Below, in pieces: positions 10,173 to 15,739 of a DNA stretch of 34,176 bases; position 1 is the first letter of the stretch, and every line of letters begins with the position of its first letter. The position numbers and the translations under genes are program-made. The DNA lies in IMG/VR virus record IMGVR_UViG_3300020469_000136, positions 1 to 34,176 of that record; one strand, written 5' to 3'. Below the pieces are notes generated by a model that was not told the origin of the DNA, searched no databases, and worked only from the letters and a program-made list of their open reading frames with translations. Origin of the DNA: a virus.

Positions 10173-10648
10173 TATTTCCCATCCTGGTATTGACCATCAT
10201 ATTTGTGATTAGTTTCAGCTTGCAATGTTACAAACTGTGCTATTCTTGTTTTAGGTGATAAGAAAAATTCACCTGATCCTACATGCATAACTCCACCTAT
10301 AAAGTTTTTGAAACCACTATCATATAAACCACTTGTAATAAAAATTCCATTTCTATTTAATGTAGATCTTGCTATTATCCATCCTGCAGTACCTTCTGGT
10401 ACTTCGACGTAATGCTCTGTTTCAAATTCATAGGATCCAGGATAAAGATGCCAGACTAGTTTATCTTTATCCTGAGGATCTTGAAACAATGGAACTTCAG
10501 TTTTATGTCTGTTTTGTTTATGACCTTCTGTTAATACAAATGGCTCACTTGTGATCATTAATAACTTAGATACTTTTAAATCAACTGCATTAGGTTGAAT
10601 GCAATCATCTGTTAAATCTGACACAAAATCTTTAGAGTGTACTATCAT
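10172..10648 (-). CDS. dUTPase / dCTP deaminase superfamily protein
   Basis: 158 aa of the trimeric all-beta dUTPase/dCTP-deaminase fold, which keeps dUTP out of DNA. Motifs: QPNAVDL at 18-24 (motif I), ARSTLNRNG at 93-101 (phosphate-binding ARSS-like), YDSGF at 109-113, RIAQFV near 135 and a C-terminal YDGQYQ at 150-155 that resembles the dCTP deaminase/dUTPase tail closing on the nucleotide. In dCTP deaminases the catalytic Glu lies in a LE(F/L) strand after the GF motif; here that strand reads GGVMHVG with no Glu, so deaminase activity is doubtful. The annotation stays at superfamily level. It overlaps the DUF3310-like gene by 17 bp; AAAGGTGA provides the ribosome site. Confidence 0.75.
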   Translation of the reverse strand: MIVHSKDFVSDLTDDCIQPNAVDLKVSKLLMITSEPFVLTEGHKQNRHKTEVPLFQDPQDKDKLVWHLYPGSYEFETEHYVEVPEGTAGWIIARSTLNRNGIFITSGLYDSGFKNFIGGVMHVGSGEFFLSPKTRIAQFVTLQAETNHKYDGQYQDGK

Positions 10649-10916
10649 TTACTTCACCTTTTTCATTATCATTAGCATATAGCATCAATACGATATAATG
10701 AATAGCTTTGAATAAATCCTTACGATTCCTTCCATTCTTTTTACCATATCTAGCTAAATATTTTATAGCTGTATCTCTGGCAGTAGTATCAAGACTACCT
10801 AACGAGTACCAAAAATCAACTGTTTGTACATCTTTGTTACCAACATAATGCTCACCATATGTTGACTGAATATATTGTTTCACTTCATCTAATATAATAT
10901 TTTCATTATATTTCAT
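10632..10916 (-). CDS. DUF3310-like small protein, 94 aa
   Basis: The core TAIKYLARYGKKNGRNRKDLFKAIHYI (split here as TAIKYLARYGKK, NGRNRKD and LFKAIHYI, residues 49-75) matches the pattern of DUF3310 proteins of phages: a-IKYL-x-R-x-G-K-K followed by DL-x-KA-x-xY. These are widespread in tailed phages and sometimes labelled nucleotide kinase-like, but no kinase motif is visible here. The N-terminal part (VDFWYSLGSLD) lies where the family has V(I)DFIE. It is first after the promoter at 10944-10972, behind GTGAGG, and overlaps the dUTPase-family gene downstream, suggesting a nucleotide-metabolism operon. Confidence 0.65.
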   Translation of the reverse strand: MKYNENIILDEVKQYIQSTYGEHYVGNKDVQTVDFWYSLGSLDTTARDTAIKYLARYGKKNGRNRKDLFKAIHYIVLMLYANDNEKGEVNDSTL

Positions 10917-10943: not shown

Positions 10944-10972
10944 AGTATCCTATAAAATAACATAAATGTCAA
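10944..10972 (-). promoter_or_regulatory. Sigma70-like promoter for the DUF3310/dUTPase/GT genes
   Basis: A consensus TTGACA (10972-10967) and GATACT (10949-10944) are separated by 17 bp. The TGA inside TTGACA is the stop codon of the TGT-like gene. It is the best match to the sigma70 consensus among the gap promoters of this window. Confidence 0.75.
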
Positions 10973-11820
10973 CAAAGATAATTCCTTGATAGCTTATCAA
11001 TATATTCCATATTATCAATTGCCATTTCAAGATTGTCAATTAACTCAGTGGAATAATTGAAATCAACTTCTAATTCAAATTTACCATCTCTACGACCTGT
11101 AGGGGTTCCATCGAATCTTTGACCGTTTAAACCTAACCATATAGCAGCAGAAGAGTCCCATGTATCAATATAATTCTTAAAAGGATTCATAAACATTATT
11201 TCATTAGGACCATCTAACATACCTAATAAATGTATTTTAATATCTTTGGATTTCAAATGATCTAATATACCCTCTTCTTTTAACATATACATTAAACGTA
11301 GACGTGAATTAAATCTTTGTAGTTTGTTACCTGATTCTACATTGTATGCAAGAGGAGCTGCTAGTATAGATATTCCAACGTAATCAATATAATTAGATTG
11401 TGTTGCATGTCTAAATCCATATATTAAATCTTCAATGTTTCCAGTTTCTCCTTGTGGAACATAAAAAGTTTTAAATCCAGCTTCTCTAAATACTGGACCT
11501 AACATTGAGGATGCTTCAATAGTTTCCATAGATTCAGATCCTGGATAATCTGACATCACTATATAATCTGCATTAATCTTTTTTCCCATGTCTATTAATT
11601 TACTGGGATCATACATTTCTTTTTTCATCTTAAACATCTCAAAAGCAGAGTTATCCATAATTAATGTACAATTATATCTTTCTTTTTGGTCTAAATAAAA
11701 GTCAATATATTTTTGATCCTGCTCTATTAAATGAGCAAGAACAAGATGTACAGGTCGTCCATCTGTAAGAGATAAATGGGGTGTAGGGGATATGTGGCAA
11801 AAGTCCATAGTCTTTTTCAT
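10969..11820 (-). CDS. TGT/DpdA-like TIM-barrel protein (putative 7-deazaguanine DNA transglycosylase)
   Basis: 283 aa from ATG 11820, which follows GAGG; the frame also opens at TTG 11835. The spacing of segments resembles tRNA-guanine transglycosylases and their DNA-acting relatives (DpdA): LIMDNSAFEM at 53-62 where TGT has a D-S-G-G-F loop, FYVPQGE at 119-125 (TGT: V-Q-G-G), IDYVGIS at 145-151, HLLGMLDGP at 197-205 (TGT: YLMGVG-x-P) and YIDTWDSS at 217-224 (TGT nucleophile region D-x-F-D). The C-terminal CxCxxC zinc site of tRNA TGT is absent. Three 7-deazaguanine synthesis genes lie 2 kb away, which supports DNA modification. The match is by motif order only; another TIM-barrel enzyme remains possible. 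Confidence 0.55.
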   Translation of the reverse strand: MKKTMDFCHISPTPHLSLTDGRPVHLVLAHLIEQDQKYIDFYLDQKERYNCTLIMDNSAFEMFKMKKEMYDPSKLIDMGKKINADYIVMSDYPGSESMETIEASSMLGPVFREAGFKTFYVPQGETGNIEDLIYGFRHATQSNYIDYVGISILAAPLAYNVESGNKLQRFNSRLRLMYMLKEEGILDHLKSKDIKIHLLGMLDGPNEIMFMNPFKNYIDTWDSSAAIWLGLNGQRFDGTPTGRRDGKFELEVDFNYSTELIDNLEMAIDNMEYIDKLSRNYLC

Positions 11821-11849: not shown

Positions 11850-12269
11850 TTATGTAACGTGTTGTATCTTTGTTGCTGTATGTAATGGAACAAGATGCAT
11901 ATTATTCTTATGATGTACTTTAGCATAAGTATGAGCACCCATTCTCATCATTCCATCATATTTACCTGTAACAGATTTACCTTTTTCATTAGTATGTGTT
12001 ACAGCTACATGACCACCTTTTGTTTTAGTCTTACGATGTAATGATTGTAATGTTTTCTTATTACTATTGTATGCTTTTGTAGCTTGATCTTGTTGAGCTG
12101 ACATACTATCTTCAGATGTAGCTTGAGCCCTCTTCATTTGATCAGGAGTAGGAGCTCCAGGAGCACCTTTCTTTCTCATCTTTTCTCCAGAACCTTTTTT
12201 GATTCTTTCTCTCTTTTTGTGGATATTATCCCAAAGACTTTCATCTAAATATTCTTTATACGTTTTCAT
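11850..12269 (-). CDS. Basic hypothetical phage protein with conserved N-terminal tag, 139 aa
   Basis: Strongly basic and His/Lys-rich, without catalytic motifs. Its start, MKTYKEYLDESLWDN, and the following IHKKRERIKKGSGEKMRKKG-APGAPTPDQMK resemble an N-terminal tag I know from various unrelated proteins of T4-like and other tailed phages; its function is unknown. The middle is Gln/Ser/Thr-rich and the last 60 residues (HVAVTHTNEKGKSVTGKYDG and HTYAKVHHKN) look like a small beta domain, perhaps an SH3-like or DNA-binding fold. ATG 12269 is immediately after the preceding stop (12270). Packaging with the virion or nucleic-acid binding is possible but not shown. Confidence 0.6.
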   Translation of the reverse strand: MKTYKEYLDESLWDNIHKKRERIKKGSGEKMRKKGAPGAPTPDQMKRAQATSEDSMSAQQDQATKAYNSNKKTLQSLHRKTKTKGGHVAVTHTNEKGKSVTGKYDGMMRMGAHTYAKVHHKNNMHLVPLHTATKIQHVT

Positions 12270-12746
12270 TTAATTATCCTTTGAATAAAAAGTTGATGAA
12301 CCATTCTCATCATCTTCACTTATTTCTATAGTTAAATCTCTATTAGGATATTTATCTTTTATTATAATTGCAAGTTCATCAGAGATCATCTCACAGGATT
12401 TATAATCTAGGTTGAGCACTTGCGTACTATAACTGCTTTGCTTATCATCTGTTCCAACAGTGTACAATCTTTGCAACCATCTGCTGAATTGTATAAACTC
12501 GATTTCTCTATCGTCATGAAACACTTCGATTGACACCCTGAAATAAAACATATGACGATGAGGATACCCAAGAAACGACACATCGTCCCATCCTCCTGTA
12601 GCTAATTTAGGATCATCTAAAGCAGCAGGGTACTTGTGTATTCCTTCTTTTTGAAACTTAACCCATATACTTTTCTTAGAATTCTTTATCATATTGGTTT
12701 CTCTCAATCTCCTAGACATGTATGCGAGATGTCTCTCATCCCGCAT
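12270..12746 (-). CDS. Hypothetical protein, 158 aa
   Basis: I do not name a family. After a basic start, the stretch from MIKNSKKSIWVKFQKEG (residue 19 on) through YPHRHMFYFRVSIEVFHDD, FIQFSRWLQRLY and SCEMISDELAIIIKDKYP reads as a compact alpha/beta domain, and the C-terminal tail is acidic. The position of the start is unclear: ATG 12746 overlaps the nuclease-like gene by 11 bp with a poor ribosome site, whereas an ATG at 12692 has GAGAG 8 bp upstream. A conserved structural or DNA-interacting role is possible. The gene ends one base before the 139-aa gene begins. Confidence 0.6.
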   Translation of the reverse strand: MRDERHLAYMSRRLRETNMIKNSKKSIWVKFQKEGIHKYPAALDDPKLATGGWDDVSFLGYPHRHMFYFRVSIEVFHDDREIEFIQFSRWLQRLYTVGTDDKQSSYSTQVLNLDYKSCEMISDELAIIIKDKYPNRDLTIEISEDDENGSSTFYSKDN

Positions 12747-13203
12747 TTTTATTTTTCATTCTAGCTACTGACATAAAAGAATAATTTTTCTTTCTTTCCC
12801 AAGCAGGAAGTACCATATAGTCTTTTGTGTAATCATAACTATCAGCCATCTCAGGTACACCATAATATACAATCCAACCTGTATTAGGATTCACATGAAA
12901 TATTCTATCACATTTAAGAGCTTTTTTACCTTGAAACCATTTCTTTTCAATACGAATATTACCCTTTTCATCCATGTTATTTTTTACATCACAAGTATAC
13001 TCATTTGCCCATTTAGGATTCTGAAACGAAATATCAATTCCTTGTATTTGCTTCTCTTTATCATCTTCATGATGAGTAGCATACCAACCCCATGAGTTGA
13101 ATACATCCATCATAAATAATTCACCTTCAAGGCCTTTTTTACCCATAGGTCCAAATGCTTCTTCTGCAGTTGGTGTCCATTCTTTAGTTCGTCTATCTGA
13201 CAT
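12736..13203 (-). CDS. PD-(D/E)XK-like nuclease-fold protein
   Basis: 155 aa with the hallmark arrangement of the restriction-endonuclease fold: a helix with Glu (KGLEGELF, E26/E28), then GIDISF with D57 and, after a turn, the strand CDVKNN with D72 and K74, that is D-x(14)-D-x-K. Downstream YVVY-like strands (GWIVYYGVP) and RIFHVNP complete an alpha/beta core. It may be a phage endonuclease acting on host or unmodified DNA, or a resolvase-like enzyme. Its company with 7-deazaguanine genes makes sparing of modified DNA an attractive but untested idea. The start overlaps the 63-aa gene by 11 bp. Confidence 0.6.
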   Translation of the reverse strand: MSDRRTKEWTPTAEEAFGPMGKKGLEGELFMMDVFNSWGWYATHHEDDKEKQIQGIDISFQNPKWANEYTCDVKNNMDEKGNIRIEKKWFQGKKALKCDRIFHVNPNTGWIVYYGVPEMADSYDYTKDYMVLPAWERKKNYSFMSVARMKNKNAG

Positions 13204-13384: not shown

Positions 13385-13414
13385 TTTTCACTCCTTTTCA
13401 TTATTATAAACAAA

Positions 13415-13445
13415 CTCACAATACCTTTTAGATCAGTATTGTGAG
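13415..13445 (-). terminator. Hairpin terminator or processing stem before the 63-aa gene
   Basis: A perfect 10-bp inverted repeat, CTCACAATAC and GTATTGTGAG (arms 13445-13436 and 13424-13415 on the minus strand), has an 11-nt loop and is followed by TTTGTTT. The stem is AT-rich and the T-run is interrupted, so it may be a leaky terminator or an RNA-processing site. Confidence 0.55.
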
Positions 13446-13596
13446 GGTAGTATCTATTGTGGATTATGATTCCTTGAGTCCTACCAGACTTGTAAATCTC
13501 CGTTGATGCCGTACCTACTGTACTCTCTTCTTCACCAACTCAATCCTTACTATCGCTATGTCATTTTATATATTCCTTTATCTTAATCTTTAACTA
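13446..13596 (-). ncRNA. Possible structured RNA or leader between folE and the 63-aa gene
   Basis: The 285-bp gap 13385-13669 has no usable ORF; the only good ribosome site (AAGGA near 13572) leads into ATG-ACA-TAG, a two-codon cistron. A promoter (13603-13631) would start RNA near 13596 and the hairpin at 13415-13445 would end it, giving about 180 nt. Inside, TTGAGT (13543-13538) can pair with ACTCAA (13479-13474), and TTGGTG with CATCAA (13508-13503, one G-U). These compete with other short stems, so the fold is unproven and I recognise no RNA family. Confidence 0.35.
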
Positions 13597-13602
13597 TAAT
13601 TA

Positions 13603-13631
13603 AGTATCACATATAAAAAGATAAAGGTCAA
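13603..13631 (-). promoter_or_regulatory. Sigma70-like promoter downstream of folE
   Basis: TTGACC (13631-13626) and GATACT (13608-13603) are 17 bp apart. The -35 to -10 layout and the TTTAT after the -35 box closely match the promoter at 10944-10972. It would transcribe the non-coding interval and, through the hairpin, the 63-aa gene and nuclease-like gene. Confidence 0.7.
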
Positions 13632-13669
13632 CAGTTTTTTTCACAAAAACAACATTTTTTTTAAATTAA

Positions 13670-14377
13670 TTATGTTCTTGTACCAGCAAATGTTTGTTGC
13701 ATTTTTATATAATCTAAGAACTCATTTTTTACAGATGGATTGAAGAATTGTCCACGAAGCTCAGTAGTTTGTGTAAGTGAACTGTGAGCATGTACACCTC
13801 TATGTTCCATACAACCATGTGTAGCTTGTACATAAACAGCTAAGTCTTTTGTACCTGTATACTTTTGCAATTCATTAGCTATACTCATAGTAAGTTCTTC
13901 TTGAAGAGTACCACGATTAGCACACCATTGAGCAATACGAGCATACTTAGATAATCCAATAACTTTTACACCAGCAAGTAGTCCTATGTAGGCTACACCC
14001 TTGACAGGCTGATGATGATGAGAACACATTGATATGAGTTCTGCTCTAGTAACAATAATACCTCCATATCGTGTATTAGGATCTACATTAGGAAAGGCAG
14101 TAACTTTTGGTGCTTTCTCATATCGTCCACCCATAATCTCATTAATATACATCTTTGCAAGACGACGAGGTGTGTCCATTGAGTTAGGATCGTTATGACG
14201 GTCAATCAACAAACTATCTAATACACCTTCAAACTTTTCTTTCAGCTCCTCTATAAGAGCTAGTTTGTTCTCTTCTGTAATATATTCTGATATGTTATCA
14301 CCAGCCCAATATCGCTTACCATCTTTTTCAAGTTTCTGTTTAATAATATCAGAGACACCATTACCATTTTTATTCAT
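13670..14377 (-). CDS. folE: GTP cyclohydrolase I (FolE)
   Basis: 235 aa. It converts GTP to dihydroneopterin triphosphate, the first step of both folate and 7-deazaguanine (queuosine/preQ0) synthesis. Motifs: DTPRRLAKMYINE around 68-80, SMCSHHHQPVKGVAYIG with zinc-binding Cys/His, GLSKYARIAQWCANRGTLQE, and THGCMEHRGV near the C-terminus with the second zinc Cys. All catalytic Cys/His residues appear present. The start overlaps the end of queD by 8 bp and AAGGAC lies upstream, so QueE-QueD-FolE form one operon. In this setting the product most likely feeds QueD, not folate. Confidence 0.95.
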   Translation of the reverse strand: MNKNGNGVSDIIKQKLEKDGKRYWAGDNISEYITEENKLALIEELKEKFEGVLDSLLIDRHNDPNSMDTPRRLAKMYINEIMGGRYEKAPKVTAFPNVDPNTRYGGIIVTRAELISMCSHHHQPVKGVAYIGLLAGVKVIGLSKYARIAQWCANRGTLQEELTMSIANELQKYTGTKDLAVYVQATHGCMEHRGVHAHSSLTQTTELRGQFFNPSVKNEFLDYIKMQQTFAGTRT

Positions 14378-14831
14378 TAATATAGTCCTTTTTTACAATT
14401 GCACTGTTAGCACCATGTTCTGCACATTCTACACTTTCAACCCAACATCTTCCATCTGTAAGTTTTTTAATTAACTCATCTGCATATTCAAAAGCATGCT
14501 GTGCAAATTTTTCAGCACCTACTCCATCAAATATTGTAAGCTCTGCAAGCCCATCTTCTTCTAAGACTTTAAAGTGAGTCATATATGGATCACTTTTGTC
14601 TACAACTAACTTATGATCAAAACTATCTACTAACCATTCTTTAAGTGGTTTAAGACCTCCAAAGTCAACTGCCCAGTTCTTATCATCTAATTCCCTACAC
14701 CCAAATACAAATGTGAATGCTAATGAATATCCATGTAAGAAAGAACAATGAGAATGAGAGGCCTTGGGTTGTCTAAACACTGCACTCAATCCAATTTCAT
14801 GACCATATTTTTTAGTTGATAAGTAAACCAT
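14370..14831 (-). CDS. queD: 6-carboxytetrahydropterin synthase (QueD-like)
   Basis: 153 aa, T-fold enzyme that turns dihydroneopterin triphosphate into 6-carboxy-5,6,7,8-tetrahydropterin, the second pathway step. C29 and H33 sit in HSHCSFLHGY, corresponding to the catalytic Cys and zinc site of C-x3-HGH enzymes; the second His of HGH is Y35 here. The motifs VDFGGLKPLKEWL and FDHKLVV (Asp/His relay) and ECAEHGANS near the C-terminus (substrate-anchoring Glu) are kept. The HGY variant seems to belong to a long-branched QueD subgroup rather than to a broken gene, because the rest is intact. The ribosome site AGGAG is 5-6 bp before ATG 14831, eight bases past queE. Confidence 0.85.
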   Translation of the reverse strand: MVYLSTKKYGHEIGLSAVFRQPKASHSHCSFLHGYSLAFTFVFGCRELDDKNWAVDFGGLKPLKEWLVDSFDHKLVVDKSDPYMTHFKVLEEDGLAELTIFDGVGAEKFAQHAFEYADELIKKLTDGRCWVESVECAEHGANSAIVKKDYINE

Positions 14832-14839
14832 TATATCTC

Positions 14840-15739
14840 CTATGTTCCTATCGCGTTTCCAAATAGATATACATGTACTCTTGCACTTACATGATATCCT
14901 CTCTTAAAAGCTAATTCAGCTACTTTTCCTGCTGTATCCACTTGCTCTTCTTCTCTAGCTCCAACAGGCATAATATATACAGGATAATCTACACCTTCAG
15001 CTCTAAAACTTTCCAATACTTCTTCCATCTCGTCCCACTGTTCATTATCTGAACCCATAACAAATTTTAAATGACCTCTATCAGTCAACTCTCTATAAAC
15101 ACTTACCAACTCAGGTTTTATAGCTTTCTCTCTTTTCTCTCCTGCAACAGACCATAACTTAGGACTCAAAGACATAAATAATTCATTCTGAGCCTCATGT
15201 TTCCAAAACTCTATAAAGTCATCTCTTAACTTTTGTGTACCATTAGTTTCATAGGTTACAGAACCAGGAATATTATTGTCATTATAAAAGTGTCTCAACA
15301 TCTGTACACTAGCCATCTGTGCATGAGCCATTAAAGGTTCACCTCCAGTAAAACACATATGTGATTTCATCTTACTTATAGGATGTAGAAACGTACCTTC
15401 TGGATTAGTTTCATTTGAAGCACATTCCTTAATTACTTCACATAGTTCTTTAGGTGTCTTTTTACCCATTAAATGTTTAAACTTTTTACTCCATGTATAA
15501 GAGCTATCACAACCCTTATCCCACACAGGTAAATCCTCAACTCTGTTAACTGTAGTAGCATCAAAACTTTCAAAAGGTAATTCATATGTTTCAGGTTTAG
15601 TAGGAAACAACTGACCAAAACCATTACATTGTAAATTACATAAAAAGAATCTTAACCAAAGAGTGTGCACACCTGTATATGTACCCTCTCCTTGAATACT
15701 GTCAAAGACTTCAGAATACAAATATTCTTTTTCACTCAT
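14840..15739 (-). CDS. queE: 7-carboxy-7-deazaguanine synthase (QueE), expanded cluster loop
   Basis: 299 aa radical-SAM enzyme that contracts 6-carboxytetrahydropterin to 7-carboxy-7-deazaguanine (CDG). The opening SEVFDSIQGEGTYTG (9-23) and LWLRFFLCNLQC (27-38) are typical. Instead of C-x3-C-x2-C, the third cysteine appears only at C77 in GCDSSYTW, after a 38-residue insertion, so the cluster motif is probably C34, C38, C77. FTGGEPL (about 160-166) is the SAM-binding GGE motif. At 299 aa it is longer than most QueE (about 210-240 aa), mainly because of that loop. The ATG overlaps the stop of the deformylase-like gene by 4 bp. QueC, the next enzyme, is not in this window. Confidence 0.88.
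   Translation of the reverse strand: MSEKEYLYSEVFDSIQGEGTYTGVHTLWLRFFLCNLQCNGFGQLFPTKPETYELPFESFDATTVNRVEDLPVWDKGCDSSYTWSKKFKHLMGKKTPKELCEVIKECASNETNPEGTFLHPISKMKSHMCFTGGEPLMAHAQMASVQMLRHFYNDNNIPGSVTYETNGTQKLRDDFIEFWKHEAQNELFMSLSPKLWSVAGEKREKAIKPELVSVYRELTDRGHLKFVMGSDNEQWDEMEEVLESFRAEGVDYPVYIMPVGAREEEQVDTAGKVAELAFKRGYHVSARVHVYLFGNAIGT

Follow-up and report, generated by a model that had tools for sequence, protein, structure and literature searches.

The window analysed here, meaning the whole stretch of DNA under study, is a complete IMG/VR record of 34,176 bp and represents a fragment of a virus genome. Judged by eye from its gene content (recombinase, family B polymerase, clamp, clamp loader, terminase, sheath and capsid genes), the source reads as a T4-like phage. 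The genes of the locus are as follows:

10632 to 10916, minus strand: DUF3310 protein (Pfam DUF3310), directly downstream of the DpdA-like gene
10969 to 11820, minus strand: predicted small zinc-less DpdA-like DNA-guanine transglycosylase (translation, family alignments, AlphaFold2, Foldseek and profile match to the CP220/immuto DpdA family)
11850 to 12269, minus strand: small ORF separating the T-fold gene from the DpdA-like gene, no Pfam family above cut-off
12270 to 12692, minus strand: QueD/PTPS-like T-fold protein of 140 aa, PHROG 17812, function unknown (AlphaFold2, Foldseek and context)
13670 to 14377, minus strand: FolE, GTP cyclohydrolase I (Pfam GTP_cyclohydroI 2e-39, PHROG 2197 1e-45)
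14370 to 14831, minus strand: QueD-like 6-carboxytetrahydropterin synthase (Pfam PTPS 5e-13, PHROG 2389 1e-38)
14840 to 15739, minus strand: QueE-like radical SAM protein, 7-carboxy-7-deazaguanine synthase (PHROG 2076 5e-53 and sequence)

The folE, queD and queE genes (13670-15739) lie on one strand and overlap or nearly so. The original prediction had placed them about 2 kb from the DpdA-like gene on its own strand, and folE indeed starts 1.85 kb upstream of it, followed by queD and queE. In the QueE-like protein (14840-15739) the third cluster cysteine is displaced, with about 40 residues separating C-x3-C from CDSSYTW; the QueE proteins of phages phiST and immuto have C-x3-C-x7-C spacing. 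The QueD-like proteins of the window (14370-14831) and its relatives carry CxxxHGY as against CxxxHGH in QueD, with Tyr at one metal-ligand position in 5/5 compared. An ORF at 12736-13203 (155 aa) matched no family, and its GIDISFQ...YTCDVKNN resembles, by eye, a PD-(D/E)xK nuclease motif. Upstream of this ORF, the non-coding stretch 13390-13660 contains strong stems (z -2.2), including CTCACAATAC...GTATTGTGAG, with no Rfam match.

The DpdA-like ORF runs on the minus strand from an ATG at 11820 to a stop codon at 10969-10971 and encodes 283 aa. All of the motifs quoted in the original prediction are present, in the order of tRNA-guanine transglycosylase (TGT): MDNSAF (55-60), VPQGE (121-125), GIS (149-151), LLGMLDG (198-204) and DTWDSS (219-224). 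The only cysteines are the three scattered residues C8, C51 and C283, and the protein is therefore without a CxCxxC site, as predicted. Both the CxCxxC...H zinc site and the C-terminal tRNA-binding subdomain of TGT proper are absent from the 283-aa sequence.

Searches of Pfam, NCBIfam and PDB sequences with the DpdA-like protein returned nothing credible, Pfam TGT (PF01702) did not match, and a Pfam match to TcdA_TcdB (E 0.02, 43 residues) was rejected as chance. PHROG 887, whose name is queuine tRNA-ribosyltransferase, matched weakly (E 0.006). The window family was aligned by hhalign at probabilities of 0.7% to TGT, 5% to the DpdA of phage 9g and 6% to DpdA2, none of them significant; in these non-significant alignments the catalytic motifs are in register, and H197 is aligned with H196 of 9g DpdA. 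A phmmer search of the PDB with 9g DpdA found nothing.

The fold was predicted using AlphaFold2 with a 70-row family alignment as input. The resulting model (pLDDT 95.8, pTM 0.92) is an eight-stranded barrel with strands at 6-9, 24-28, 52-56, 86-88, 117-120, 147-151, 195-199 and 220-223, and the conserved residues are modelled in or directly after the strands, where the active site of a barrel would lie. A Foldseek search of the PDB gave TGT structures at all of ranks 1 to 10, and 7ui4, 'DNA preQ0 insertase DpdA', was also listed at E 3.6e-7; at rank 11 was a D-psicose epimerase (8xiv/8xix) with a similar E-value and a lower TM. Against BFVD, the hits were a phiST protein (TM 0.82/0.89), nt-1 DpdA2 at 3e-6 and annotated queuine transferases. 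As modelled, the fold is a (beta/alpha)8 barrel closest to TGT. The original prediction had hinged on a TGT barrel with an Asp pair in its pocket, and the model has a TGT-type barrel with D56 and D222 at the C-terminal ends of strands.

Relatives of the protein were found by pattern scan at 494 loci in IMG/VR and at four in GTDB. Full-length relatives identified by tblastn, nearly all annotated as 'hypothetical', occur in Vibrio phage D479, Aeromonas phage Ahp1, Rhizobium phage RHph_I1_18 and Vibrio phage Bakedbeans, and remotely in Cellulophaga phage phiST. In RHph_I1_18 a single ORF (L003 8001-9269) encodes the DpdA-like protein joined to a DUF3310 domain. Remote relatives from Gram-positive phages, namely Bacillus phages BSP7/BSTP and Weizmannia phage Youna2 (H23-H27, H40), carry unrelated annotation names. 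Across 70 dereplicated members D56, N57, D91, Q123, G149, H197, L199, G200, E207, D222, S223 and S224 are invariant, and across 10 highly divergent members P12, L28, Y38, D56, N57, D91, Q123, H197, L199, G200 and D222 are. With this many loci and these invariant residues, the motif pattern goes beyond chance. Read from these alignments, the invariant set matches the catalytic set of TGT, with D56/D222 as the putative Asp pair; D56, D91, Q123 and D222 are, we assume, equivalent to TGT residues D102, D156, Q203 and D280. Among the aspartates originally put forward, D222 is invariant together with D56 and D91, while the D58/D59 region and D219 are not.

A TIM-barrel hydrolase or isomerase, acting for example in base or nucleotide salvage and TGT-like by fold only, would also account for a barrel that has no significant direct sequence match to TGT and for which epimerases score at similar Foldseek E-values. 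This explanation is very improbable, given that the six TGT motif positions are all conserved, in the TGT order, and that the gene lies where other loci have recognisable TGT homologues, described below.

The family could be extended, by way of a WWE3 relative, to proteins of Flavobacterium phage vB_FspM_immuto_2-6A and of Campylobacter phages CP220, CPt10, CP20, CP21 and others. The immuto proteins are annotated as 'DNA guanine transglycosylase, DpdA', and QueD, QueE and FolE are encoded close by in the record, as in the window; CP220 has queD, queE and folE in the same genome as its DpdA homologue. By hhalign the window family matches CP220/CP21/immuto at 99.3% (E 1.2e-20). With an HMM built from CP220, CP21 and immuto only, the window protein scores 4e-11 as against 0.02 for the best non-family ORF, and reciprocally an HMM of the window family detects CP220 at 6e-17 (best unrelated ORF, 0.1). 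The link that the original prediction had sought by HMM-HMM comparison was found with the immuto/CP220 DpdA family and not, at a significant level, with TGT, 9g DpdA or DpdA2. The assignment to the TGT/DpdA-type transglycosylases is upheld by the predicted TGT-type barrel, the invariant D56 and D222 and this profile link to an annotated DpdA, and homology and context alike place the window protein in the small phage DpdA family. The WWE3 relative lies on a bacterial MAG contig (L137 9294-11532) with folE, queD and queE on the opposite strand and queC, which is either the remnant of a phage or a cell-encoded modification locus. The start of another small DpdA relative was seen near queC on a Methanothrix MAG contig (L138), possibly an archaeal virus.

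The DpdA of immuto_2-6A (YP_010114477), CP220 gp056 and CP21 gp069 (PHROG 19058) share with the window protein a length of about 260-283 aa, the lack of a zinc site and the motifs DNS.F, PD/SD, QG, HLLG and LDTSN/WDSSA. This immuto/CP220-type small DpdA family presumably corresponds to the subfamily DpdA3 described in Cui et al. 2023. Identity to the window protein is about 22-24%, and in the tree the window clade is separate from the CP220/immuto clade with support of 100/98 for 24 rows, the bootstrap being not fully settled. Unlike the window clade, immuto and CP220 encode QueC, accompanied in immuto by an annotated QueF, and no T-fold partner lies near their DpdA gene. DpdA as a kind is already known, and the window clade, called a new variant because of its separate position in the tree, looks together with its T-fold partner like an undescribed one. 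In CP220 and CPt10 DNA, 100% of dG is reportedly replaced by dADG (PMC8306585), and a 2019 survey found no DpdA in CP220-type phages (PMC6884629). CP220 gp056 (L140 8899-9675, unannotated) is, by homology, a candidate for the enzyme inserting the fully substituted dADG of CP220.

PhiST_gp042 of Cellulophaga phage phiST (PHROG 20335, unknown function), the protein at TM 0.82/0.89 in BFVD, matches over its whole length at E 1e-4 with 25% identity and a long branch; its locus resembles the window in having queD-queE-folE and a T-fold gene alongside and no QueC. The DpdA2 proteins of Vibrio phage nt-1 (YP_008125322), Acidovorax phage ACP17 and Xanthomonas phage X1 (PHROG 10773) share the predicted barrel, with HxLG and YDS in register, and in X1, ACP17 and BUCT-ZZ01 DpdA2 adjoins the same T-fold gene as in the window. 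Unlike the window protein, they are 416-464 aa long and retain DSGG and FDEIP motifs, without a significant sequence match; neither PHROG 10773 nor homology to nt-1 DpdA2 places the window protein in DpdA2. The DpdA of 9g (PHROG 887) and the bacterial DpdA (7ui4) also share the barrel, and the DSSS of 9g aligns with the DSSA of the window protein, although the sequence alignment with 9g is the non-significant one. TGT shares the fold and has the catalytic Asp, Gln, LG and Asp motifs in the same order; in contrast to it, the window protein lacks the zinc site, is about 100 aa shorter and falls below Pfam TGT detection.

Genes for 7-deazaguanine synthesis adjoin nearly all relatives: folE, queD or queE was found nearby in 61 of the 66 with at least 4 kb of upstream sequence, in keeping with the claim that the protein is the natural insertion enzyme beside these genes. 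queC was found in the loci of 3/137 relatives. Among complete phages, QueC is absent or below cut-off in Ahp1, RHph_I1_18, Bakedbeans, phiST and six others. The first four all encode FolE and have a QueD match, weak in Ahp1, and Pfam TGT is absent from them. The window being a genome fragment, QueC may be encoded elsewhere in its source phage. The original claim of a completed modification system holds for the neighbouring folE, queD and queE, whereas QueC is missing and the QueD-like T-fold partner had been overlooked.

Synthesis genes of this kind also serve tRNA queuosine, and a TGT fold together with the name of the weakly matching PHROG 887 would suit a tRNA-guanine transglycosylase with which the phage raises the queuosine-type modification of tRNAs, whether its own or the host's. 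This is unlikely: the zinc and the C-terminal tRNA-binding part of TGT are missing, QueC, required for tRNA queuosine synthesis, is not encoded by the complete relatives, the closest annotated kin is DpdA, and CP220, the nearest relative of known DNA chemistry, carries fully substituted DNA. We infer instead, at a probability of roughly 0.87, that the window protein is a DNA transglycosylase of 7-deazaguanine in the TGT superfamily, with DNA rather than tRNA as its substrate.

The T-fold protein was modelled with a pLDDT of 89 as beta-beta-alpha-alpha-beta-beta, and its best Foldseek matches are all QueD/PTPS. Its conserved residues are H19, H45xH47, S99-C100-E101 and E126-D127-x-E129-N130-G131. 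The metal-binding His pattern (H19, H45, H47, all invariant) is retained, SCE and EDxENG are invariant motifs of its own, and the catalytic CxxxHGH motif of QueD is not present, LxxxHRH standing in this position with no Cys four residues before H45. Of the 107 relatives whose upstream sequence covers 1 kb or more, 89 have a T-fold homologue in the locus, mostly just upstream. That the gene replaces QueD was rejected, as complete genomes with the T-fold gene mostly have QueD too.

An independent search with the T-fold protein revealed a second group of phages, in which the T-fold gene lies beside a protein of about 500 aa in about 70 IMG/VR loci (L252-L331; e.g. L259 7675-9201 and L276 7547-9040). 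This protein has DSGGFQ, LQG, MGG and FDC motifs, is matched by no Pfam or PHROGs family, and aligns by hhalign to TGT at 95% (E 2e-8); an earlier assignment to PHROG 887 was dropped once the scan found no PHROG. In an alignment of only 2% probability with the DpdA-like protein, five motif pairs coincide (DNSAF/DSGGFQ, SDYP/LDIP, VPQG/VLQG, HLLG/HFLG and WDSSA/FDCAS). Counting only T-fold loci flanked by 4 kb or more on each side, the partner is the ~500-aa TGT homologue in 46, the window type in 37 and DpdA2 in 3, with none detected in 1 and two types in 0, so the three transglycosylase types beside the T-fold gene are mutually exclusive. Among loci of at least 8 kb, the T-fold gene was present in 138 and queC in 28, never both, in clades that are not independent of one another. 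Vibrio phage D479 has the T-fold gene and, elsewhere in its genome beside NAD genes, a QueC-like gene. The lack of any shared locus suggests that the T-fold protein acts in the place of QueC on 7-carboxy-7-deazaguanine (CDG), for instance as a decarboxylase; we suppose that it could be a CDG decarboxylase, either DpdL (Cui 2023) or a new one.

In the proposed mechanism, FolE, QueD and QueE, encoded 2-4 kb upstream, would make CDG, and the transglycosylase would remove guanine from phage DNA after replication and put in the 7-deazaguanine base, with D222 as the probable nucleophile, D56 as acid/base and D91 and Q123 holding the base. The identity of the inserted base is much less sure than the enzyme class. 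Because these phages are without QueC, the base is most likely CDG, or decarboxylated 7-deazaguanine if the QueD-like T-fold protein has acted, and the predicted route would end in dCDG or deoxy-7-deazaguanosine. Alternatively, the same enzyme would insert preQ0 or a compound derived from it, the host contributing QueC; a QueC gene is expected in most hosts of these phages, and nt-1, immuto and CP220 encode their own. We consider this possible but the less probable course, as a phage able to borrow QueC could also borrow FolE, QueD and QueE, and the separation of T-fold and queC loci, within its non-independent clades, also speaks against it. Beyond the window, and with odds that we put slightly short of even, the QueC-free route may form a module widespread among large phages of marine and freshwater origin, in which FolE-QueD-QueE yield CDG, the T-fold protein tailors it, by decarboxylation or in some other way, and insertion falls to one of three or more interchangeable transglycosylases (the small window type, DpdA2 or the ~500-aa TGT homologue).

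From these results, roughly 490 'hypothetical' phage genes would gain a functional assignment, as would PHROGs 20335 and 19058, and the Campylobacter CP220-type phages would gain a candidate insertion enzyme. The T-fold enzyme, as yet unstudied, is a likely determinant of which 7-deazaguanine reaches the DNA. The modified phage DNA would resist host restriction, and since 7-deazaguanine bases block many restriction enzymes, the module may represent a common counter-defence.
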